NCBI GenBank assembly: GCA_016790075.1
Contig: JAEUPP010000038.1
Coordinates: 62,001-126,000 of the forward strand
From: Rhodanobacteraceae bacterium
GTDB taxonomy: Bacteria > Pseudomonadota > Gammaproteobacteria > Xanthomonadales > Rhodanobacteraceae
Reading direction: 5' to 3'
Length of the DNA: 64,000 bases
The translations under genes and the position numbers were made by a program. Numbering within the stretch: the stretch's first letter is position 1; each line of letters begins with the position of its first letter. Under the pieces are notes generated by a model. It saw nothing but the letters and a program-made list of their open reading frames with translations. It ran no database searches and was not told the origin of the DNA. This document shows positions 39,321 to 50,509 of this stretch, one piece after another.

Positions 39321-39602
39321 TCAGGCGGTGCCGAAGTGTTGCACAAGGCGCTTCTGGATTTCCTTCTCCACGGCGGGCTTGAGCATCGTCAGCAGAAACC
39401 CGAGTTCGGCGGTCACGTGTACCAGTCCCTTCTCCAGGGCAATCTTGCCGTTCACGCCGGAGCGCTCAAAGTGCAGCACGTTGCCTTTCCACCCCCAGGT
39501 CAGGTCGAATTTCCTGGAGATTTCTTCAGCCACTTCCGTCACGGCAATCTTGGCTTCCTTGACGGGCTTGGCATGCTTGTGGCGGATATCGATCGAGGGC
39601 AT
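39321..39602 (-). CDS. Polyhydroxyalkanoic acid system family protein
   Basis: A 93-residue conserved protein of the PHA_gran_rgn (TIGR02610) type: PSIDIRHKHAKPVKEAKIAVTEVAEEISRKFDL, WKGNVLHFERSGVNGKIAL and LVHVTAELGFLLTML, ending with VEKEIQKRLVQHFG. The family is found near phasin and PHA synthase genes; its molecular role is unclear. Here it precedes the patatin and phasin genes on the same strand, giving a small PHA granule group. No phaC synthase is in the window. Confidence 0.88.
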   Translation of the reverse strand: MPSIDIRHKHAKPVKEAKIAVTEVAEEISRKFDLTWGWKGNVLHFERSGVNGKIALEKGLVHVTAELGFLLTMLKPAVEKEIQKRLVQHFGTA

Positions 39603-39778
39603 TGCTGGTTTCCGCTATGAAGAATAAACAAGGCTTGTGGCCGGGGAGCTTTGCACTATGATGCCCGAGGCCGCGTAGTCGGCGTGATGCAGTGCCGCAT
39701 GCGGCCACGATTGCGGCGAGGGCGCGCATTTCAAGCCGGCGACCGCAAGACCGTCAACAGGCAGGGGGTGGGGCTGAC

Positions 39779-40444
39779 GTGCATTCGAGATTGCTGTTGT
39801 GGGCGGTTATGTCGATACCCTGCGTCGCCGGCGCTGCGACGATAGAAGGGCGGATCACGCTGACGCTCGACGGCAAGGAGCTCCGGCCTGAAGAAGCGGC
39901 CGAAGCCGTCGTCTATTTCCGGCCTGCGACTCCGATTCCAGTTGCCGCGGCCAAGCGGCCGATCGAGATGGTCACGCTGCGCAAGCAGTTCGCTCCGCGC
40001 ATCTTGCCGATCACCGTGGGCACGGAGGTTCGCTTCCCGAACCAGGATCCTATCCTGCACAACGCCTTCTCGACCTCGAAAGATAACGGCTTCGACATCG
40101 GTCTGTACGGCCAGGGCGAGGGCAAGGCGCAGCGCTTCGACCATGCGGGCTATGTCCGTGTCTACTGCAACGTACATCACTCGATGGTCGGCCACATCCT
40201 CGTTCTTGATACGCCTTTTTTTGTACGGCCCGATGCGTCGGGAAAGTTCCGCCTCAAGGATCTGCCTGCGGGCAAGGGAGATCTCGTGATCTGGCTGGAT
40301 CGCGCGACGCCATGGCATGCCGAGGTGGTTGCCGGCAAGGCCGAGCCGGTGGCGATCAGGCTTGAACTTGCGCAAAAAAAGATTCCGCCACACATGAACA
40401 AGTTCGGCAAGCCCTATGGCAGGAGCAGCGATGGCGGCTATTGA
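39779..40444 (+). CDS. Periplasmic cupredoxin-like protein (methylamine-utilisation-type)
   Basis: A 221-residue secreted protein. GTG 39779 is preferred because it opens a signal peptide (MHSRLLLWAVMSIPCVAGA); the earlier ATG at 39692 gives a long Arg-rich leader. A plastocyanin-like core follows: VTLRKQFAPRILPITVGTEVRFPNQDP, then the type 1 copper ligands His94 (LHNAF), Cys130, His133 and Met136 (YCNVHHSMVGHILV). A C-terminal beta region (GKFRLKDLPAGKGDLVIW) resembles a carboxypeptidase-regulatory-like fold. It is the first gene of a four-gene run; its end overlaps the kinase start by 14 nt. Likely a copper-binding electron carrier or sensor partner. Confidence 0.8.
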   Translation: MHSRLLLWAVMSIPCVAGAATIEGRITLTLDGKELRPEEAAEAVVYFRPATPIPVAAAKRPIEMVTLRKQFAPRILPITVGTEVRFPNQDPILHNAFSTSKDNGFDIGLYGQGEGKAQRFDHAGYVRVYCNVHHSMVGHILVLDTPFFVRPDASGKFRLKDLPAGKGDLVIWLDRATPWHAEVVAGKAEPVAIRLELAQKKIPPHMNKFGKPYGRSSDGGY

Positions 40445-43145
40445 GCGGCAGCGGCGTCAAGGCGGATTCGCGCTGCCGCTGGCAATTCGCTTTTTTCTCG
40501 CGATGGCGCTGATGATCGTACTCGCCGTCAGTGCGGCGATCGTGGTGACCTATGTGCAGGGCAAGCGCATCGCGGATAGGGCCATCGGCAAGACACTCGC
40601 GACCAGCCAGGCGGCCCAGCGCGAGTTTGAACAGCATCGCCTGGAGCAGCTGGAACTGAGCCTGCGTCTGGTGGCCTCCGATGCGAGCTTCGTCAAGTAC
40701 ATCGCTGACGCCAACAGCACGAGCAATCTACCGGGGCTCGGCGGTGATGCTGCGCCCGACACGGTGTCGATGCGTGATCTTCTCGGCGACCGGCAGAAAG
40801 ACATAGGCTTCAGCCTCGGCATACTGCTCGATGGCAAGGGCGAGGTGCTCGCTCGCACCGATCAGACCGAGGCGTTTACCGAATCTCTGGCGGCTGACCC
40901 GCTGGTCGCGCCGGCGCTGGCCGAAGTCCGGCCGCTCAGCGGCTACTGGCGGCTCGACGGCAAGCTCTATCAGGCCGCAATCGTGCCGCTGGCGCAGGAC
41001 CAGAACGTGGCAGGCTTTCTGCTGCTCGCTCAGGCCGTGGACGACACGCTGGCAAGAAAAGTAGCCCAGGTCAGTGGCGCCGAGATCGCGTTCTGGATGC
41101 CGCTGGGCGGCAAGCCGGCCCTGGTTGCGACCTCGCTGGATGCACCGCTGGCGGCCGCACTGCGCGAGCGCATTGGCGCCAGCGGCAGCCTGCCGGCGAC
41201 AGGTGCTGGCGCAGAGGACACGCATCTTGACCTGACCGGCCAGGACTGGGTCACACGTGCATCACCGACGGCGGCGGCCGATGCCGCTGATCTGGGCAAG
41301 GTCATGGTGCTGGCTTCGTCAGAACAGGTCATTGCGAGCTACCGGGCGATCCTCAACAGCGTGCTGCTGGGCGGGTTGATAACGATGCTGCTCGCGCTGC
41401 CGCTGTCGTACCTGATATCCAAGGGCATATTGCGGCCTGTTTCGGCCATGGCTGCTGCGGCGGAGCAGGCGGCCGCCGGCAATTTCCAGACCCGTCTGGG
41501 CATGCAGGGCCAAGGCCAGGACGAGCTTGCGCGGCTTGCCCGTGCTTTTGATTCGCTGCTGTCGGATCTGCGTGAAAAGAGCGACATGGAAGGTTATGTC
41601 GGCAATCTCGCACGCTTCCTGCCCGAGCCCGGACAGGAAGGCTCTGGCCTGAGTGTGCACACTCAACCGCTGTCGACCGTGATTCCCGCCCGCCGCGAGT
41701 CGGCTGTGTTGCTCGGTCTGGAGTACCGGCATCTGCTGACTGTTCCGGCGCAGACACCGCCGGAACAGGTTGTCGACGACAACACCCAGGTGCATGCCCG
41801 CCTCAGCGCCGCCGCGGCGCAGCGCGGCGCCCTGTGCCTGCGCGGGCCCGGTGCGCGCTGGACGCTGGCCTTCAGTGGCCTGGGACGTCTGAACGATGCG
41901 CTGAGCGTGCTGCGTGACGAGCTCGCAGCCACGCCGGCGCCGGCGGCGGCGCTGGCCGATGGTCCTGTGGTATTGGCAGATTCCGGCAGCGGCGCGCAGC
42001 TGATTGGTGCCGTCCAGGTGCAGATCGACAGGTTGCTCTGTGATGCCGCTCCGGGTCAGGTCCTTGCCGGCCGCAGTAGCGGTGAGTCCCTGCGCAGTGA
42101 ATTTGGTGCGGATGCGGTCAGCGTTGCGACCGGAGGTTTCAGCAGCAAGCAGTACTACGCGCCGGCCAGGGAACTGTTGCAGCGTCTGCCCGCGCCGGTT
42201 GCGCCGGCGTCACCGGCAGATGAGGACAATGCCACCGTGCCGCGGGGCGTTGCCGCGATCACGCCGCGTGCGTCCGGTTCCGCCGCCGCGCCGATGCGTG
42301 CTGGGCGTGACAGCGGTGAACTCGCGCCAGGGGCGACCCTGGGCGGACGTTATCGCGTGCTGTCGGTGCTCGGTGCCGGCGGCATGGGCGTGGTCTACAA
42401 GGCGCACGACCTTGAACTCGACGATGTGGTCGCACTCAAGATGCTCAAGCCCGGCGCATTGCTTGACGCCGAGCAGTTGGACCGCCTCAAGAGCGAGATC
42501 AAGCTCGCGCGCCGCATTACCCATCCGAATGTGTTGCGCACGTTCGACTTCGGCGAGGTCAACGGCTTGCCCTATATCTCGATGGAATATGTGCGTGGCA
42601 TGACTTTGCGTTATCTGCTGCGGGAGGCCAAGCGCGTGCCTTACTCCGCCGGCTTGCGCATTGCACGCCAGCTTGCTGCGGGCCTGGCAGCCGCGCATGA
42701 AGTGGGCGTGCTGCACCGGGACATAAAACCTGAAAACCTGATTCTCGAAGCCAATGGCAACGCCAAGCTCATGGATTTTGGCATCGCACGGCCTGCCCGC
42801 CGAGCGACTCCCGGACATACCCAGCCCGGCACCTTCCTGGGCACTCCTAACTATTGCGCGCCTGAGCAACTGGCAGGCGAGGAAGTTGACGAGCGGGCGG
42901 ACATCTATTCCTGCGGTGTTCTGATGACCGAAATGTTTTGCGGCGCGTTGCCGTTCAGTGGTTCAAACACCATGGAGATCTATATGGCGCAGATGCAAGC
43001 CGAGCCCGCACGGCCGTCGACACTGTGGCCGGAGATCCGGCCCGAACTGGAAACGCTGATCCTCAAGTGCCTGCAGCGTAATCGCAACGACCGGCCCGCC
43101 AGCGCCGCCGAGCTGGCCGTAGCTCTGGCACAGCTGAGGGCCTGA
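40431..43145 (+). CDS. Membrane Ser/Thr protein kinase with periplasmic sensor, HAMP and degenerate cyclase domain
   Basis: A 904-residue kinase with an unusual layout: TM1 (~18-42), a ~265-residue periplasmic sensor (CACHE-like), TM2 (~306-330), HAMP (~331-383), a region (~422-583) that aligns by eye with class III nucleotide cyclases but lacks their metal-binding residues (AVLLGLEYR...; GPVVLADSGSGAQLIG; DAAPGQVLAGRSSGESL), and a C-terminal Hanks kinase (~636-904). The kinase core looks active: GAGGMGVV, VALKMLK, HRDIKPENLIL, DFGIARP, NYCAPEQ and DIYSCGVLM. AGGAG before ATG 40431 sets the start. It is translationally coupled to the cupredoxin and followed 2 nt later by a porin. The tandem FHA protein at 44326 is a likely phospho-target. 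Confidence 0.88.
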   Translation: MAAIERQRRQGGFALPLAIRFFLAMALMIVLAVSAAIVVTYVQGKRIADRAIGKTLATSQAAQREFEQHRLEQLELSLRLVASDASFVKYIADANSTSNLPGLGGDAAPDTVSMRDLLGDRQKDIGFSLGILLDGKGEVLARTDQTEAFTESLAADPLVAPALAEVRPLSGYWRLDGKLYQAAIVPLAQDQNVAGFLLLAQAVDDTLARKVAQVSGAEIAFWMPLGGKPALVATSLDAPLAAALRERIGASGSLPATGAGAEDTHLDLTGQDWVTRASPTAAADAADLGKVMVLASSEQVIASYRAILNSVLLGGLITMLLALPLSYLISKGILRPVSAMAAAAEQAAAGNFQTRLGMQGQGQDELARLARAFDSLLSDLREKSDMEGYVGNLARFLPEPGQEGSGLSVHTQPLSTVIPARRESAVLLGLEYRHLLTVPAQTPPEQVVDDNTQVHARLSAAAAQRGALCLRGPGARWTLAFSGLGRLNDALSVLRDELAATPAPAAALADGPVVLADSGSGAQLIGAVQVQIDRLLCDAAPGQVLAGRSSGESLRSEFGADAVSVATGGFSSKQYYAPARELLQRLPAPVAPASPADEDNATVPRGVAAITPRASGSAAAPMRAGRDSGELAPGATLGGRYRVLSVLGAGGMGVVYKAHDLELDDVVALKMLKPGALLDAEQLDRLKSEIKLARRITHPNVLRTFDFGEVNGLPYISMEYVRGMTLRYLLREAKRVPYSAGLRIARQLAAGLAAAHEVGVLHRDIKPENLILEANGNAKLMDFGIARPARRATPGHTQPGTFLGTPNYCAPEQLAGEEVDERADIYSCGVLMTEMFCGALPFSGSNTMEIYMAQMQAEPARPSTLWPEIRPELETLILKCLQRNRNDRPASAAELAVALAQLRA

Positions 43146-43147
43146 TC

Positions 43148-44263
43148 ATGCGCGCAATCAAGCTCGACATCGTTTGCCTGGCGTTTGCAGCGATTGCGCT
43201 GACAGCAGCCATTGCCGGTGCTGCGCACGCCCAGGACAGCATTCTTGATGCCAGCACAGAAGAGGCAGAGCCGGCTTCACACTGGAGCTGGTTTGGCGAC
43301 CTTCAGCTGCGTTATGACCATGTCGAGGGATTGCCCAACGACCGCATCGTGAACCGCTGGCGTGGGCGAGGGCACCTCGGGGGCGAGTTCGTTGCCATGC
43401 CAGAACTCAGTTTCGGCGCAGCGATTGAGCTTGCGCAGGGTAGCGATGACAACGCGGACAACGTCATCAACAACGATAATGCGCGTAGCAACCATGCCGC
43501 TGCGAATCAGCTCTGGATGCGCTGGCAGCCGTCGGAAAACACCCGCGTGCAGCTCGGCAAAGCGGCGTTTCCGCTCGAACTGACGCCACTGACCTGGGAT
43601 GCCGACCTGCGCCCGGTTGGCATCAGCCTGCGCCAGTCCATCGCGCTGGGGGACTACAGCCGTATCCAGTTCGATGTTGGTGGTTTTGCACCGCAGCACT
43701 ATTTTGGCGATGAGTCGCGGCTGGCGGCGGCGCAGCTTTCCTGGCGCTGGCATGAAGGCGCGCCGACGAATGCGGCAGTGATGCTGAGTTACCTCAACTT
43801 CTCGGACTTGGATGAACTCACCCGACGAGGGCTGACACGAACGAATCGGCGCCTCCCCCAGCAGGGCCCGCTGCTCAGCGACTACCGCTTGCTCGACTTG
43901 CTGGTCGTCGGGCGCACAGCGCTTGGCGACTGGCCGCTCGAAGCGCGCCTGGATCTGGTGCGTAACCTTGGCGCTGACGATCAGCGTGACGGCGCGCGCT
44001 TTAGTCTCGTGCTCGGTAGCCGCCTGCTGCCGCGCGGCTGGGAGTTGGGCTACTCCATTCAACGCATACAGCGTGATGCAGTGCTGGCTGCATTCAACGA
44101 GGACGACTGGTGGTTCCACAGCTACGTACGTGGCGTCATGCCCTGGGTCGGTTACGGAATCAACGAGCGCTGGAACCTGAGGCTGGCGCTGTTTCACGAG
44201 CAGCGTGGCGGCTTGCCTCGATATACGGACCGTATTCTGTTCGACATCGGCGCACGCTGGTAA
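43148..44263 (+). CDS. Outer-membrane beta-barrel protein (porin-like)
   Basis: A 371-residue protein with a Sec signal peptide ending AGAAHA. Alternating amphipathic strands run through the mature protein (GDLQLRYDHVEG, NQLWMRWQPSENTRVQLGKAAFPLEL, SRIQFDVGGFAPQHYFG, GWELGYSIQRIQ, WNLRLALFHEQRG), and it ends in an outer-membrane sorting sequence with terminal Trp (DRILFDIGARW). The family is not certain; alginate-export-like or phosphate-selective porin-like barrels are closest in style. It starts 2 nt after the kinase stop, so it is certainly in the same transcript. Its cargo is unknown. Confidence 0.8.
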   Translation: MRAIKLDIVCLAFAAIALTAAIAGAAHAQDSILDASTEEAEPASHWSWFGDLQLRYDHVEGLPNDRIVNRWRGRGHLGGEFVAMPELSFGAAIELAQGSDDNADNVINNDNARSNHAAANQLWMRWQPSENTRVQLGKAAFPLELTPLTWDADLRPVGISLRQSIALGDYSRIQFDVGGFAPQHYFGDESRLAAAQLSWRWHEGAPTNAAVMLSYLNFSDLDELTRRGLTRTNRRLPQQGPLLSDYRLLDLLVVGRTALGDWPLEARLDLVRNLGADDQRDGARFSLVLGSRLLPRGWELGYSIQRIQRDAVLAAFNEDDWWFHSYVRGVMPWVGYGINERWNLRLALFHEQRGGLPRYTDRILFDIGARW

Positions 44264-44325
44264 TCCCCCGGGGACCTCGTGCTAAATTGCCACCGCGTTA
44301 TTCAACGGAGTGGGCCGGTTAGCTG

Positions 44326-45213
44326 ATGGAAATTCGCGCGCGCTTGAGCTTTCCCAACGGCGAGCACCCGGACTTCGTGCTGGCGCCTGGCGTTTGTGGA
44401 ATAGGCTCCGATAGGAACAACCAGGTCGTGCTCGAAGGCGGCGGCGTCGCACCGCACCACGTGCGCCTGGAGGTCGACGGGCGAGGCCTGACGCTCAGCG
44501 TGCTCGACTCACGTGCCCACACGCACTTGAATGCGCGTCCGGTGCGCGAGAAAGGGATTGTCCGGCTCGGCGATATACTCAGTGTCGATACCGTGCAGAT
44601 TATCGTGAAGCCCGAGCGTGACGAAGTCATCCGCACTTCGGTGCCCAGTGAAAGCACGTTCCCGGCCGATGCCGAAACACGTGCACGAACGGTACCGCCC
44701 AAGGTCGTGCTGCGCGGTGTTTCCGGCGCCCAGTTCGGCCGCATTGTGCCGGTGCGCGGCCGGCTCACGATAGGTCGCGGCGGCGAATGTGACCTCGTGC
44801 TTGACGAGCCTGAAATGTCGCGTCGCCACGCGATGATCGAGAACAACGGCGACGGAATCTATCTGCGCGATCTCGGCTCATCCAACGGCACCTTCGTCAA
44901 TGGCGTGCAGGTGCGAGACGCGGTGCTGCATCCCGGTGATCAGATCGCATTCGACCGCACCCGCTTCCTGCTCGAAGCGCCAGGCCTGCCGCTGCGGGGC
45001 GAACTCGTCGAAGAACGCAATCCGGGTTTTGCACCAGCGATTACGCAGACCATGCAGGCGGTGACCTTGCCCGAGCCAGCGGCCAACAAGCCCAAGCCTG
45101 AAGCGGTGCAGGCCGTCGAAGTTGACGTGAACCGCAACGAGATCTGGTGGCTTATTGGCGCTGCTGCTGCTATCGGCAGTGCTATCGCGCTGTTGCTGCT
45201 GTTTGGGTTTTAG
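44326..45213 (+). CDS. Tail-anchored protein with two FHA domains
   Basis: A 295-residue cytosolic protein. FHA1 (~20-90) is variant (GIGSDRNNQVVLEGGGVAPHHVRL). FHA2 (~140-215) is canonical, with all phosphothreonine-binding positions (IGRGGECDLVLDEPEMSRRHAMI, LRDLGSSNGTFVNG). A flexible linker leads to one C-terminal membrane helix (IWWLIGAAAAIGSAIALLLLFGF) that would anchor it in the inner membrane facing the cytosol. It lies 62 nt after the porin gene, so it can read phosphothreonine on the kinase encoded upstream or on its substrates. Confidence 0.9.
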   Translation: MEIRARLSFPNGEHPDFVLAPGVCGIGSDRNNQVVLEGGGVAPHHVRLEVDGRGLTLSVLDSRAHTHLNARPVREKGIVRLGDILSVDTVQIIVKPERDEVIRTSVPSESTFPADAETRARTVPPKVVLRGVSGAQFGRIVPVRGRLTIGRGGECDLVLDEPEMSRRHAMIENNGDGIYLRDLGSSNGTFVNGVQVRDAVLHPGDQIAFDRTRFLLEAPGLPLRGELVEERNPGFAPAITQTMQAVTLPEPAANKPKPEAVQAVEVDVNRNEIWWLIGAAAAIGSAIALLLLFGF

Positions 45214-45274: not shown

Positions 45275-45922
45275 TTACTGAGGTCTGCGCGTCGGCAAGG
45301 TCCCGGTGCGTAGCCGTCGGGCGAGTGCACTCCACGGCAAGCGCAGTGCCATCAGGACCAGGTAGATCACGCCATAGAGCAAGGGCTCCTGGTTGGCGAA
45401 CTTCTGGCCCGACTTGACCAGCCAGAGATAGTGCAGCACGGCGCAAAGACCGACGAGATAGACCGTCTTGTGCAATGACGACCAGTGGCGGCCGAGACGG
45501 CGCATCATGGCCTGGGTTGAAGTCAGGGCCAGAGGCACCAGCATGAGCCAGGCGAGGAAACCCATCGTGATATAGGGGCGTTTGACGATTTCGTCGAACA
45601 ACTGCCGCCAGAAGCCGCCGAGATCGATAACGAGATAAATACCCAGATGCAGGCTTGCGTAAAAGAACGCGAACAGCCCGAGCATGCGGCGAAAGCGCAA
45701 CAGCACCGGTAGGCCGGTGATCTGACGCAACGGTGTCACGGTCAGTGTTGCCAACAGCAGGCGTAGCGCCCAGTCGCCGCTGCGCCGTTCGAGTACCGCA
45801 ACGGGATCAGGGCCCAGTGTCTGCCGGTATACATCCCAGACCAGCAGTGCGAACGGCAGCAGGCACAGGCTGAATAGCGTGAGCTTGGCCAGGGCGATGC
45901 GTGGATCCTTAGGGCGTTTCAT
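45275..45922 (-). CDS. msrQ: Protein-methionine-sulfoxide reductase haem-binding subunit
   Basis: Inner-membrane b-haem protein that passes electrons from the quinone pool to MsrP. The protein is 215 residues from ATG 45922. It has about six membrane helices and conserved haem-ligand histidines (FFYASLHLGIYL, RRLGRHWSSLHKTVYLVGLCAVLHYLWLV). It pairs with msrP directly upstream on the same strand, with an 84-nt gap; its stop faces the FHA gene. Confidence 0.95.
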   Translation of the reverse strand: MKRPKDPRIALAKLTLFSLCLLPFALLVWDVYRQTLGPDPVAVLERRSGDWALRLLLATLTVTPLRQITGLPVLLRFRRMLGLFAFFYASLHLGIYLVIDLGGFWRQLFDEIVKRPYITMGFLAWLMLVPLALTSTQAMMRRLGRHWSSLHKTVYLVGLCAVLHYLWLVKSGQKFANQEPLLYGVIYLVLMALRLPWSALARRLRTGTLPTRRPQ

Positions 45923-46006
45923 TGCTCTCCCTGGCGGCGCAGAACAATCATTGCAAAGTGAGTTCGCTACTTGCACTCGTGGTGAAACGCCGCATTAGCG
46001 AGCTGC

Positions 46007-46996
46007 TCAGAAGTTTGCGCGCAGATCCATGCCCGCGTAGAGCGCGGCAACATCCTCGGCATAACCGTTGAACGGCAAGGTGGCAATGCGTTGCGAAAAC
46101 AGACTGCTTCCGTTTCCCGCGATACGCCGTTCGCTGGCCTGGGTCCAGCGCGGATGATCGACAGCGGGATTCACGTTCGAGTAGAAACCGTATTCATTCG
46201 CTGCGGCGAGATTCCATGAGGTCGCCGGCTGCCGCTCCCAGAACTCTATGCGCACTATCGATTTGGCCCCCTTGAAACCATATTTCCATGGCACGACCAG
46301 CCGTAGCGGCGCGCCGTTCTGATTGGGTAGCTCGCGACCATACAGGCCGACCGCAAGCAAGCTCAGCGGATGCATGGCTTCGTCAATGCGCAGCGCCTCA
46401 CGATAGGGCCAGTCAAGCACCGGATAGGCCAGGCCGGGCATCTCCGAGGGGCGATTCACGGTAGTGAACGCGACATATTTTGCGCGCGAAGTAGGGCGGA
46501 AGCGCGCAAGGCATTCACCTAGCGGTATTCCTATCCACGGAATCACCATCGACCAGGCCTCAACACAGCGATGACGATAGACGCGTTCTTCGAGGGTATG
46601 TGGCTTCAACAGGTCTTCGAGCGTGAATTGACCGATGAGTTCGGCATGTCCTGCAACCTCTATCGTCCAGGGCTTGGGTCTGAAGCGGCCCGAATGGCGC
46701 GCCGGTGAACTCTTGTCGGTGCCGAATTCATAGTAATTGTTGTAGCTGGTCGCGTCGTTCCAGCTAGTGAGTGCTTCGGCTGTCTGCCAGCGCTCGTTGC
46801 GTTTGGCCTGCAGTGGCTTGCCGGCCGCAGTATCGGAGGCCGGCGCAGCGGCCTGGCCTGGTTCGCTGTCACCGCAGCCGGTAACCAGCAGTGGTGCGGC
46901 CAGACCCAGCGTGTGCAAAAACTCGCGCCGCCGCCAGTACACGGACTCGGGCGTGATTTCGGAGCTGGCAATCGGTTTGCTGCGGAATCGTTGCAT
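46007..46996 (-). CDS. msrP: Protein-methionine-sulfoxide reductase catalytic subunit
   Basis: Periplasmic molybdenum enzyme that repairs methionine sulfoxide in exported proteins. The protein is 329 residues from ATG 46996. A Tat signal is visible (RRREFLHTLGLAAPLLVTGC). The molybdopterin-ligating Cys lies in YRHRCVEAWSMVIPWIGIPLG, with LPNQNGAPLRLVVPWKYGFKGAKSIV and SNVNPAVDHPRWTQASERRI typical of the family. The signal ends in a lipobox-like LVTGC, which would make it a Tat-exported lipoprotein, unusual for MsrP. It is divergent from the five-PAS protein. Confidence 0.95.
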   Translation of the reverse strand: MQRFRSKPIASSEITPESVYWRRREFLHTLGLAAPLLVTGCGDSEPGQAAAPASDTAAGKPLQAKRNERWQTAEALTSWNDATSYNNYYEFGTDKSSPARHSGRFRPKPWTIEVAGHAELIGQFTLEDLLKPHTLEERVYRHRCVEAWSMVIPWIGIPLGECLARFRPTSRAKYVAFTTVNRPSEMPGLAYPVLDWPYREALRIDEAMHPLSLLAVGLYGRELPNQNGAPLRLVVPWKYGFKGAKSIVRIEFWERQPATSWNLAAANEYGFYSNVNPAVDHPRWTQASERRIAGNGSSLFSQRIATLPFNGYAEDVAALYAGMDLRANF

Positions 46997-47062
46997 AAGG
47001 TGATTGGACTCGGAATTTGGTTTCTTGATTGATGTGGTCCGCTTGCGCCAATGACTGCGCCA

Positions 47063-47098
47063 AGAGTGATTGCCCAATCCCCCGGTATTGATCACTCT
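47063..47098. promoter_or_regulatory. Inverted repeat in the msrP / PAS-GGDEF-EAL divergent region
   Basis: AGAGTGAT (47063-47070) and ATCACTCT (47091-47098) form a perfect 8-bp inverted repeat with a 20-nt spacer, in the 315-nt region 46997-47311 between divergent genes. No other gene is seen in that region. It may be an operator for msrP; no known regulator consensus was recognised. Confidence 0.35.
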
Positions 47099-47311
47099 GA
47101 ACGCCGCGGCGACCGGAGCGCCAGCATTTCACCGATCTGCACAAGCCGCCGTCAGGGCTGCAACGCCCTACCGCGGATAGGGGCTTTGACCTCTTCCGGC
47201 CGGGCCCGTTTTGCGAGCAGACCGGCCAGGCCGCCGGGATCTTTCAAAGGGCTCTGGCGATGCGGACTGCCCTCGCTATACTGGCGCGAAATTGGTCGAT
47301 GTCGAGTGACG

Positions 47312-50300
47312 GTGCACGGGGAACCTCACATTGCCGCGGCGTTTCGCTATTCGGCCAGCCTGATCGTCGTGTTGGATGCGAGCGATGGCTGCATAGTCGA
47401 TGTGAGTCCGTCTGTCGAAACGACGCTCGACTACCCGCGCGACGAGCTTGTTGGCAGGCGCCCGATTGATGTTGGCCTGTGGCGCAACCTCGATGAACGC
47501 GCCCTGCTCTGGGCGAATCTGCGCAGCCAGGGGCGTCTTTGCGACCAGCCGCTCGAGTTTATTGCCCGGGACGGCAGCACATTTCGCGTGCTGTGCAACT
47601 GCGAGATGTTCAATCTCGATCGACGCATGTACGTCATCTGTATTGGTCGTGGCATCAACGAACCGTCGATGGCCGCGAGCGAGGCAGCGGACGTGTCGAG
47701 CTACCGCTCGCTGTTTCTTGCCGCGGCCGAAGGCATTTATCGCAGCCTGCCGCTCGGGGGGCTTATCGACGTGAATCCGGCGATGGCGCAGATATTCGGC
47801 TACGACTCGCCGGAGCAGATGCTGCGCGATTTCGCTTGCTCCTCGCGCGATGTCTATGTCGATGCCGAGGATTACGAGCGCATGCTGGAGGAAATCCGCC
47901 GCGACGGCGTGCTGAGCAACCGCCGTTCGCGTGTACGCCGCCGCGACGGCAGCACGATCTGGATCAGTGAGAACTTGCGTTCGGTTCGCGACAGCGATGG
48001 CCGGCTGCTGTTTTACGAAGGTTCTGCGATCGACATTACGCGACAGGAGGCTGCCGAGAGCGCGCTGCGCCAATCTGAGGAGCTTTACCGCATCCTCGTC
48101 GACAACTGCCGCGACGGCGTATTCCTTATCCAGCGCGGCAGGGTCGTCTTTCTCAACGAGGCAATGTCCCGCATGCTCGGTTATACCGTCGCCGAGCTTA
48201 CCGACCATGACTATATGGAGCTGGTAGCGCCCGAATCGCGCGATGCTCAGCAACAGCGCCGCCTGTCGCGCGAAAGCGGATCGCTTGAAGTGCAGGGCTA
48301 TGAGATCTACATGCTGTGCAAGGACGGTTCGCGCCGGCTGGTGCAGGTGCGCGCCGATCCCGTGGTCTACAACAGCGATATCGCCAGCATCGGCACAGCG
48401 CGCGACATCACCGAGGAACGCCTGCAGCAACAGGCCTTGAGCGAGGCCGAGCGCAGATATCGAGAGCTATTTCGCCATTCGGTAGTCGGGCTGTTTCAGA
48501 CCCGGGCTGACGGCAGCGTCGTCGAAGCCAATGCTGCGCTGGCACAGCTGCTTGGATACGGCTCGCGTCGCGAGCTGCTGCAGCAGCTCCGCCACCTCAA
48601 CGATATTGATGTCGATGCCGAAGTGCCCCAGCGTATCTCGGCTCTGCTGCGAGCCAATGGTTATCTCACTGACGAGGAAGTGCGGTTGCGGCGCAGGGAT
48701 GGGAGAAACATATGGGCTTTGGTAAATATCCACACTGTCCGCGATGAGCAAGGTCACGTACAGAGCCTTGAGGGATCGGTGCAGGACATCACCGCACGCC
48801 GCGACGCCGAACGCGCTCTGCTGAGCTCTGAGGAGCGTTACCGCATTCTGGTCGAACATGCGCAGATCGGCGTCTACGTGATGCGTGAGGGCCGCTACAT
48901 CTACGTAAACCAGCGTTTTGCCGCATTGACCGGTTACGACGAGCGAGAGCTGATCGGCATGCATTGGGCTGAGCTCACCAGTGAAGCGGGGCGGCGCATC
49001 GTTGACGACAGGCTAGCCGCGCGCGCGCGCGGAGAATCGTTGGCGCCAGAGTATGAAACCGTGCTGCGACGCAAGGACGGCCGTGAGCTGCGTATCAGCG
49101 TCAGTGCGGGTCTGATCCGGCTTGAGGACGGTGACTGTTTCAGCGGCACGGTGCGCGATGTCACCGAACGTCATCGCTTCGAGAGCGAGCTCGAACACAA
49201 TGCGACCCACGATGCCCTGACCGAGTTGCCGAACCGCGTGCTGTTTGAGCGGCACCTCGTCGCTCGCCTGCGCGACGCGCACGAGGCCGACAATTTCAAC
49301 TATGCCATCCTGTTTCTGGATCTCGATGGCTTCAAGCTCGTCAATGACAGCCTGGGGCATGCAACCGGCGACCGCTTGCTGGTCGAAATTACTGCGCGGC
49401 TGCGTGCGGCCGTGCCGCCGGGTTCGGTGCTGGCCCGTTACGGTGGCGATGAATTTACTGTGCTGCCGCCTGCTAGTTCGGCGGCCGATGCGGAACAGCT
49501 TGCGCAGCGGCTCCTGCTCGTGCTCGGTGAGCCATTCGTATTTGATGGGCATCGCGTCTATTCCGGCGCTAGCATCGGCATCGTCATGGGGCGACCAGGT
49601 TACGCGACACCTGAACACGTGCTGCGCGATGCGGATACGGCGATGTATCGCGCGAAGGCGCGGGGCAAGTCGGCCTACGTCGTGTTTGATGAAGCCATGC
49701 ACCAGGCTGCGCGCGAACGATTGCGACTGGAAACGGATCTGCGCGAGGGCATCGAACGTGCCGAGTTCCGCGTGCACTATCAGCCGGTGGTCGATCTGCG
49801 CAGTGGCGCCATCGTCGGATGCGAGGCGCTGTTGCGCTGGGCCCATCCGCAGCGCGGTCTGCTGCATCCGCCGCAGTTCCTGGGGGTTGCCGAGGAAACG
49901 GGGCTGATCGTCCCTATTGACTGGTGGGGGCTGGAAGAAGCCTGCCGCCAGCTGTGTACCTGGCAGCGGCGCTACCCCGCCTATTCGCGGCTGCGTATCA
50001 ACGTGAATGTCGACGAGCGCCAGTTCGCCGAGCGTGACGTCGCCGCCGGAATTGGCCGCGTGCTCGCCCGCACCGAATTGGCTGCGGCTTCGCTGGCTAT
50101 CGAAGTCACCGAGACGGTGTTTCGTGCCGGACGCGGCCAGGCCGAGGCGATACTGGCCGAGGTCAAACGGCTGGGCGTGAGTCTTGTCGTCGACGATTTC
50201 GGTACAGGTTATTCCTCGCTGGATTCGTTTGCGTCCTCGCCGTTTGACGCGCTGAAGATCGATCGCAGCTTCGTGCGTGATATGGAATCCAACCGGCGCC

Positions 50301-50509
50301 ATCGCGCTATCGTGCGCACGATCTCGGGTTTTGCCGAGGATCTTGGTCTGTCCCTGACTGCCGAGGGTGTGGAGACGCAGGCTCAGGCCGAGCTGCTCAT
50401 GGCCATGGGGTGCGGCACGGCGCAGGGATTTCTGTATGCGCCAGCACTCGCGGCCGAGGCTATGGAGCAGGTGCTCGCGTCGGGCTCGGTACTCCGCCGC
50501 CGCGCCTGA
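47312..50509 (+). CDS. Five-PAS, GGDEF and EAL cyclic-di-GMP enzyme
   Basis: A 1065-residue cytosolic protein with no membrane segment. Five PAS units fill residues ~1-630; each of the later units ends in a PAC-type strand such as GSAIDITRQ, GTARDITEE, GSVQDITAR or GTVRDVTER. A GGDEF domain (~640-800) has the intact RYGGDEF signature, so diguanylate cyclase activity is likely. An EAL domain (~815-1060) keeps GCEALLRWAHP, VDDFGTGYSSL, LKIDRSFV and LTAEGVETQAQ, so phosphodiesterase activity is likely too. The GTG at 47312 is chosen as the last start before PAS1; the Shine-Dalgarno is weak, so the start is uncertain. It is divergent from msrP. Confidence 0.92.
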   Translation: MHGEPHIAAAFRYSASLIVVLDASDGCIVDVSPSVETTLDYPRDELVGRRPIDVGLWRNLDERALLWANLRSQGRLCDQPLEFIARDGSTFRVLCNCEMFNLDRRMYVICIGRGINEPSMAASEAADVSSYRSLFLAAAEGIYRSLPLGGLIDVNPAMAQIFGYDSPEQMLRDFACSSRDVYVDAEDYERMLEEIRRDGVLSNRRSRVRRRDGSTIWISENLRSVRDSDGRLLFYEGSAIDITRQEAAESALRQSEELYRILVDNCRDGVFLIQRGRVVFLNEAMSRMLGYTVAELTDHDYMELVAPESRDAQQQRRLSRESGSLEVQGYEIYMLCKDGSRRLVQVRADPVVYNSDIASIGTARDITEERLQQQALSEAERRYRELFRHSVVGLFQTRADGSVVEANAALAQLLGYGSRRELLQQLRHLNDIDVDAEVPQRISALLRANGYLTDEEVRLRRRDGRNIWALVNIHTVRDEQGHVQSLEGSVQDITARRDAERALLSSEERYRILVEHAQIGVYVMREGRYIYVNQRFAALTGYDERELIGMHWAELTSEAGRRIVDDRLAARARGESLAPEYETVLRRKDGRELRISVSAGLIRLEDGDCFSGTVRDVTERHRFESELEHNATHDALTELPNRVLFERHLVARLRDAHEADNFNYAILFLDLDGFKLVNDSLGHATGDRLLVEITARLRAAVPPGSVLARYGGDEFTVLPPASSAADAEQLAQRLLLVLGEPFVFDGHRVYSGASIGIVMGRPGYATPEHVLRDADTAMYRAKARGKSAYVVFDEAMHQAARERLRLETDLREGIERAEFRVHYQPVVDLRSGAIVGCEALLRWAHPQRGLLHPPQFLGVAEETGLIVPIDWWGLEEACRQLCTWQRRYPAYSRLRINVNVDERQFAERDVAAGIGRVLARTELAAASLAIEVTETVFRAGRGQAEAILAEVKRLGVSLVVDDFGTGYSSLDSFASSPFDALKIDRSFVRDMESNRRHRAIVRTISGFAEDLGLSLTAEGVETQAQAELLMAMGCGTAQGFLYAPALAAEAMEQVLASGSVLRRRA

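Follow-up and report, generated by a model that had tools for sequence, protein, structure and literature searches.

The locus and its genes

The stretch of DNA analysed here, called the window, comprises 64,000 nt from a Rhodanobacteraceae bacterium (GCA_016790075.1, contig JAEUPP010000038.1, positions 62,001-126,000), and coordinates without a locus name refer to it. Between 39779 and 45213 lie four genes, all open on the + strand, which encode a cupredoxin, a membrane sensor kinase, an outer-membrane barrel and a tandem-FHA protein. A first-pass annotation had read them as one tightly packed unit; its spacing was confirmed (a 14-nt overlap between cupredoxin and kinase, a 2-nt gap between kinase and barrel and a 62-nt gap between barrel and FHA gene), and its protein identities, including the C-terminal membrane helix of the tandem-FHA protein, were borne out by Pfam, profiles and an AlphaFold2 model of the barrel. 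The module is real and conserved, and it is wider than first reported. Features beyond that first description are the degeneracy of FHA1, a degenerate class III cyclase domain between HAMP and kinase, and a sensor half which is common to other outputs. The features are as follows.

39779..40444, + strand: cupredoxin, leading the unit; start signal-peptide-like, C-terminal part CarboxypepD_reg-like (Pfam, profile)
40058..40186, + strand: type 1 copper ligands His94, Cys130, His133 and Met136 (codons 40058, 40166, 40175 and 40184; alignment)
40431..43145, + strand: inner-membrane sensor kinase, with an alternative in-frame ATG at 40416 (Pfam, alignment, model)
40548..41315, + strand: periplasmic Cache/CHASE4-type domain, common to the output classes (profile comparisons)
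41415..41576, + strand: HAMP domain (Pfam, 2.4e-9)
41616..42233, + strand: degenerate class III cyclase (pseudo-cyclase) domain (hhalign 96.8%, E 2.8e-10)
42351..43100, + strand: PknB-like Ser/Thr kinase domain (Pfam Pkinase, 8.7e-54; best Foldseek match PknB)
43148..44263, + strand: 16-strand outer-membrane beta-barrel with a signal-peptide-like start (AlphaFold2 model, Foldseek)
44326..45213, + strand: tandem FHA protein, accessory, with a C-terminal membrane helix at about 45145-45213 (Pfam FHA, 1.8e-31, two stretches)
44401..44583, + strand: FHA1, degenerate, without the phosphothreonine Arg (alignment)
44767..44952, + strand: FHA2, canonical (alignment)

The cupredoxin starts with GTG, a longer GTG frame opening at 39692, and its signal-peptide-like start was judged by eye. 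A kinase start at ATG 40416 would make the overlap with the cupredoxin gene 29 nt; the 14-nt overlap is found in four of the five same-genus loci with a complete gene (L039, L040, L041 and L043, not L042). For promoter-like sites a scan gave 0 against an expectation of 1.0, and for terminator-like sites 5 against 4.1.

Conservation of the module

Co-occurrence was assessed in 61 relatives from the genus, family and order, in which a kinase ortholog was called when both sensor and kinase were matched, a cupredoxin at E<=5e-70 and a barrel at E<=2.2e-133. The kinase ortholog and the strong cupredoxin occur in the identical 21 of 61 genomes; a strong barrel match was found in 19 of these 21 (absent from G045 and G055) and in none of the remaining 40, where the best match was 1.4e-29. 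One genome of the same genus (G002, 87% complete, in 830 contigs) has none of the three genes. In 20 relatives with the module the sensor lies within 700 nt after the cupredoxin, the gap being 545 nt in G047, and in G005 and G046 the contig ends inside the kinase gene.

A scan of GTDB was analysed for the best 80 of 102 confirmed loci, the titles of which include Tahibacter, Dokdonella, Rudaea, Chiayiivirga, Wenzhouxiangella and Acidobacteria, some assemblies overlapping the set of relatives. A sensor follows the cupredoxin within 700 nt in 78 of the 80 (gap above 100 nt in 5), and the other two, L164 and L196, have only 79 and 2 nt of contig left beyond the cupredoxin; the kinase domain is visible in 71 of the 78 sensors, contig ends cutting the other 7. 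Downstream genes were counted in the 56 loci with at least 6.9 kb downstream (43 from Pseudomonadota and 13 from Acidobacteriota/Myxococcota). The barrel profile matches 40 of the 43 pseudomonadotal loci as against 0 of the 13 others, and an FHA gene is linked in 21 of the 43 and 0 of the 13.

The proposal of a single four-gene unit stands for cupredoxin, sensor kinase and barrel, which are conserved as one unit, and not for the FHA gene; in the neighbourhood check that the first-pass annotation had put forward, the three core genes co-occur, whereas the FHA gene is often unlinked and the barrel is not found in the acidobacterial and myxococcal loci. Random replacement of the cupredoxin, which that check had named as a point against the unit, did not occur, the cupredoxin being the most faithful member.

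A sensor half with exchangeable outputs

Beyond close relatives, sensor outputs in a class and a phylum survey were scored with small purpose-built profiles. Distant cupredoxins in both also precede a sensor with Cache/CHASE4 and HAMP domains (Pfam), and the outputs assigned by Pfam comprise GGDEF-EAL (L095, L102, L104, L107), class III cyclase (L094, L100), Ser/Thr kinase (L058, L089, L091) and histidine kinase (L101). Hybrid histidine kinases are present in L300, with no HAMP scored, and one gene further on in L299, where cupredoxin, a MauG-type di-haem peroxidase and the kinase with its HAMP stand in a row (L299:2421-7029). In the class survey, which took short cupredoxin matches (63 of 274 genomes, many frames about 105-145 aa) as ordinary small copper proteins, a sensor lies within 700 nt in 15 of 20 loci, with eight GGDEF or GGDEF-EAL, three kinase, three cyclase and one histidine kinase output. 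In the phylum survey 62 of 398 Pseudomonadota genomes have a cupredoxin match at E<=1e-15; 55 stronger places were fetched, and 11 of the 70 listed places, weaker than 1.1e-33, were left out. A sensor comes next in 43 of the 55, of which 38 are GGDEF-EAL, 2 EAL and 2 cyclase, L300 being unclassed. Second-tier loci in the relatives have a sensor in 8 of 9 cases (not L122), with no output classed in five.

The kinase-type periplasmic profile matches 46 of 48 GGDEF-EAL sensors (E<1e-3), all three cyclase types and not the single histidine-kinase sensor (0/1), which is matched by the GGDEF-EAL periplasmic profile. The kinase-type and GGDEF-EAL profiles align to each other with 99.5% (E 3.2e-23; two controls 0.1%). 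As judged from these comparisons, the periplasmic half is homologous across the output classes. The outputs themselves are exchanged: the cupredoxin tree, made by a quick method with SH-aLRT only and with one row for the histidine-kinase class, has at least four changes among four output classes, which are otherwise strongly clustered.

The pairing is also close to exclusive. In a test of 20 genomes, 10 picked with a cupredoxin match and 10 without, 13 of 13 strong sensor-domain matches adjoin a cupredoxin, and one weak match (1.8e-5) lies elsewhere, among the genomes without cupredoxin. With strong cut-offs of E<=1e-33 for the cupredoxin and E<=1e-14 for the sensor domain, the 398 Pseudomonadota genomes include 53 with the former, 50 with the latter and 49 with both (49 of the 54 with either), the Fisher p of 8e-57 being an overstatement because of relatedness among the genomes and because cupredoxin-linked sensors, some taken from these very genomes, went into the profile. 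A strong cupredoxin without a strong sensor domain was seen in four genomes: G166, G374, where the sensor match is weak, G548, which is 73% complete, and G602, whose adjacent sensor narrowly misses the cut-off. The strong sensor matches number 57; 48 of them have a cupredoxin on their own strand at a distance of up to 4 kb, and of the 9 unlinked ones 8 belong to genomes with a cupredoxin elsewhere. The partnership thus persists without linkage, and chance neighbourhood is no explanation for it.

The copper site and the sensor kinase

The His-Cys-His-Met ligands are invariant in an alignment of 18 relatives, and all four are present in 184 of 184 cupredoxin rows, a set which includes some duplicate assemblies and comes from profile searches that favour ligand-bearing rows (168 rows entered the tree). 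The window's cupredoxin is under the Pfam Copper-bind cut-off (18.1 vs 21.2 bits), and its relative L091 passes with 23.9 bits. A profile of the 18 relatives searched against PDB gave copper nitrite reductase as best match (4.4e-9), with the blue-copper domain protein 5fc9 (1.8e-6), plastocyanins and amicyanins also found. In 92 kinase-type periplasmic domains there is no His, Cys or Met column at >=40%; 48 GGDEF-EAL periplasmic domains have one His (31) and one Met (22) column. Since the copper ligands are in every cupredoxin row and the kinase-type sensor domains have no metal-ligand column, the metal chemistry is probably in the cupredoxin, which, if copper or redox is read at all, is likely to be the reader.

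Public plasmid records name this cupredoxin 'methylamine utilization protein' in 9 of 20 rows among the matches listed; an 'EAL domain-containing protein' adjoins it in two of the plasmid records, and a 'DUF3034 family protein' is nearby in Caballeronia. A role as the amicyanin of methylamine oxidation was considered and rejected, as 39 of the 40 genomes tested, the window's own among them, gave no match to the methylamine dehydrogenase light chain (PF02975), and the record name therefore misleads. The sole genome of the 40 with the light chain is G051 (C29:26543-26872).

A rough lipobox pattern scan of the cupredoxins gave 15 calls. Four, with linkers of 18-25, were dropped as ordinary signal peptides, and 11, longer cupredoxins with linkers of 65-171 residues, are likely (L057, L058, L091-L093, L120-L123, L205 and L207, of which L057 and L207 are one assembly). 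In 9 of these 11 loci, those with an adjacent sensor, neither barrel nor DUF3034 was found after the sensor. By eye, L119 and L124 are lipobox-like as well, and L119 does have DUF3034.

The sensor kinase of the window has two transmembrane helices, and Pfam CHASE4 and dCache_3 fall below their cut-offs in it (22.7 and 19.1 bits). Its pseudo-cyclase profile aligns to the class III cyclases of these loci (six rows) at the values listed above, with four controls at 0.1-0.3%. An active cyclase was rejected, the first metal Asp being present in 21 of 69 rows and the second in none, and the domain is predicted to be inactive on account of the latter. The shorter kinases L057, L058 and L091 lack it, and a Foldseek search of the kinase model against PDB gave no cyclase fold among the matches listed, at least 50, all of them kinase domains. 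It is plausible that a cupredoxin-coupled cyclase gained a kinase while the cyclase decayed. The kinase itself looks active from its residues: the catalytic Lys, HRD Asp and DFG Asp are invariant in 20 aligned proteins and, with gaps included, are found in 94, 92 and 93 of 94 rows, one partial row being among the exceptions.

Outer-membrane partners

The predicted AlphaFold2 model of the barrel has 16 strands (pLDDT 85.3, pTM 0.81), and Foldseek places the porin OmpM1 first among its matches (6.8e-13). Elsewhere DUF3034 takes this place. It occurs in 38 of the 398 Pseudomonadota genomes, 37 of which (not G400) have the cupredoxin; 32 of the 38 copies lie within 5 kb of a cupredoxin, one of these by a weak cupredoxin match, and in G444 DUF3034 adjoins an unlinked sensor instead. 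In the phylum survey it was found after the sensor in 21 of the 38 loci with a GGDEF-EAL output. We infer that DUF3034 is an outer-membrane protein. A single sequence family for all outer-membrane partners found no support, hhalign among the window's barrel, DUF3034 and a third family giving 0.7%, 0.3% and, for DUF3034 against the third family, 27.8%. As far as these alignments can tell, the outer-membrane partner belongs to the module but changes family. A second locus in a same-genus genome (L119) joins cupredoxin, a kinase-type sensor without the HRD Asp, and DUF3034, so output and outer-membrane partner assort separately.

The tandem-FHA protein

The first-pass annotation saw in this protein a phosphothreonine reader, which fits FHA2, whose GR-motif Arg and SxxH Ser are both present in 9 of 10 aligned proteins, and does not fit FHA1, for which none of the 10 has the usual phosphothreonine-binding Arg and one has the Ser. 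The FHA gene follows the barrel in all six same-genus genomes able to show it, the window's included. Relatives of the tandem-FHA protein (E<=1e-25) are found in 53 of the 61 genomes, many without the kinase; one genome with the kinase and without a linked FHA copy (G039) has a related copy elsewhere (54% identity), and linked and unlinked copies intermix on a quick tree of 38 rows. Core membership was rejected given the looser linkage and the presence of the family without the kinase, and the protein is kept as an accessory.

In L188 (10402-11013, Deltaproteobacteria) and L212 (10320-10952, Acidobacteria) an ECF sigma factor comes after the cupredoxin-coupled kinase and is possibly an alternative receiver. 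In a Holophagales locus (L213:10324-13136) genes for a GAF-HD protein and an FHA-GAF-cyclase protein come after the module.

Neighbouring genes

Convergent on the operon (- strand) are genes for a Ferric_reduct membrane protein and a molybdopterin oxidoreductase (45275-45976 and 46007-47095, Pfam), presumably MsrQ- and MsrP-like, and the pair is also near the module in five same-genus loci and in L047. It may be by chance that a system for repairing periplasmic methionine stands next to a copper protein with a Met ligand. After the MsrP-like gene a large frame with GGDEF and EAL motifs (47051-50509, + strand) is present in five same-genus loci. On the other side, divergent from the cupredoxin, is a 93-aa frame (39321-39602, - strand), which to our eye resembles polyhydroxyalkanoate granule regulators, with patatin and phasin genes beyond.

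Proposed mechanism and alternatives

The trans-envelope arrangement first suggested for this module is a fair reading. Its core is probably a two-protein input unit, in which the periplasmic cupredoxin would act as receptor for its own inner-membrane Cache/HAMP sensor. In a copper-loaded state, or in one redox state, the cupredoxin would bind or release the periplasmic domain of the sensor, much as YfiR acts on YfiN, and HAMP would relay the change onward, in the window to a PknB-like kinase that sits behind a pseudo-cyclase, in other loci to GGDEF-EAL, a class III cyclase or a histidine kinase. The outer-membrane partner, whether barrel, DUF3034 or third family, might tune the cupredoxin by sequestering it or by admitting copper or a ligand, and in this genus the phosphorylated kinase might be read at the membrane by FHA2 of the tail-anchored FHA protein. 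Copper or redox sensing by the cupredoxin would be the best-supported mechanism. The fuller proposal, that a type 1 copper protein serves as a dedicated receptor whose copper or redox state passes through the Cache-HAMP half to at least four exchangeable outputs, together with an outer-membrane partner, is put forward tentatively, its chances being a little short of even.

Several observations weigh against these proposals. No sensor lies within the downstream limit in 5 of the 20 class-survey loci (in L092 one of kinase type lies farther off, about 1.8 kb downstream, and in L097 the GGDEF-EAL sensor is upstream; there is none in L090, L105 and L108) or in 12 of the 55 phylum-survey loci. Four of these 12 (L267, L272, L273, L278) have instead a related protein of 403-420 residues, barrel-like by its signal peptide and C-terminal aromatic residue and with no Pfam match in L267 and L272; L291 continues with DUF3034, L299 with the MauG-type peroxidase and then the sensor, and in L303 the contig ends. 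Histidine kinase as an output is based on 3 loci and cyclase on 5, the association of cupredoxin and sensor is overstated by its p value, and overall confidence in the kinase model is low (pTM 0.44). In G166 and G532 the cupredoxin is present and the sensor gave no match, G437 has a sensor and no listed cupredoxin, and 36 further genomes have only weak sensor-domain matches (down to E 0.001), which we take as general Cache similarity.

The cupredoxin could instead be an effector, an electron carrier or copper buffer, merely co-regulated with a sensor that binds a small molecule through its Cache domain, the two proteins never making contact. Cache/CHASE4 domains commonly bind small ligands, and the peroxidase between cupredoxin and histidine kinase in L299 fits such an arrangement. 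Co-regulation alone, however, leaves unexplained why strong matches of the sensor domain are nearly confined to cupredoxin genomes even when unlinked, and why the pairing survives a change of output; furthermore, no recurring oxidoreductase was noticed in the module loci, no systematic search for one having been made, and nearly all genomes tested for the methylamine dehydrogenase light chain gave no match. We thus regard an effector as unlikely. Still less probable is a system centred on the outer-membrane pore, with the cupredoxin handling its cargo (a copper complex or other compound) and the kinase or c-di-GMP enzyme regulating it. The five loci in which the cupredoxin gene and a barrel-like or DUF3034 gene are direct neighbours, no sensor intervening, and the near-constant company of a cupredoxin in DUF3034 genomes, point that way; yet it is the outer-membrane gene that switches family, and where the barrel is not found, as in the acidobacterial and myxococcal loci and in G045 and G055, cupredoxin and sensor are kept. 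That the kinase and FHA protein are the functional core, to which cupredoxin and barrel are incidental, seems very improbable: the active-looking kinase, the canonical FHA2 and the constant place of the FHA gene within the genus agree with it, but across the GTDB loci it is the FHA gene that is often not linked, its family also occurs without the kinase, and the cupredoxin stays.

Were the cupredoxin-as-receptor reading true, the blue copper proteins, whose known roles are chiefly those of electron carriers and enzyme domains, would gain a second job as partners of signalling proteins, and in bacteria Ser/Thr phosphorylation and c-di-GMP would be open to copper or redox signals from the periplasm. 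A functional setting is offered for DUF3034, a family of unknown function, and the misleading annotation 'methylamine utilization protein' is corrected.

Comparison with known systems

No description of a cupredoxin/sensor pairing was found in the open-licence literature, which does not prove its absence; from the genes and their distribution, the cupredoxin-coupled sensor appears to be a means of copper or redox sensing that has not been described before. Its parts have familiar counterparts. The cupredoxin shares profile similarity, His-Cys-His-Met ligands and C-x2-H-x2-M spacing (which we take to be the amicyanin-like loop length) with type 1 copper proteins such as amicyanin and plastocyanin, from which it differs in its extra C-terminal part and its coupling to a sensor gene. 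The kinase resembles PknB-like kinases with FHA partners in kinase fold, catalytic residues and the canonical FHA2. PknB has PASTA repeats; here the input is Cache and HAMP followed by a pseudo-cyclase, and the kinase is paired with a cupredoxin.

Among tripartite systems, HmsCDE controls c-di-GMP through a periplasmic HmsC that, in the portion of the report cited here, responds to the redox environment and depends on disulphide bonds (PMC5550408), and it is thus alike in having a periplasmic partner able to report redox state; unlike the cupredoxin, HmsC is credited with no copper site of its own in that portion. In YfiBNR of Pseudomonas aeruginosa, as set out in the section of the source drawn on, periplasmic YfiR acts on the periplasmic domain of YfiN, with an outer-membrane partner and variable outputs (PMC3375315). 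The likeness lies in a soluble periplasmic protein joined to an inner-membrane HAMP protein with a periplasmic domain, variable output and an outer-membrane partner. The differences are that the module's cupredoxin carries a copper site and has no YfiR Pfam match (E up to 0.1), that the outer-membrane part is described there as the lipoprotein YfiB and is here a modelled 16-strand barrel, DUF3034 or another family, and that Ser/Thr kinase and class III cyclase are added as outputs. With no YfiR family match and no YfiB-type lipoprotein, the module is not a member of YfiBNR; YfiR-YfiN is nonetheless the nearest known design.

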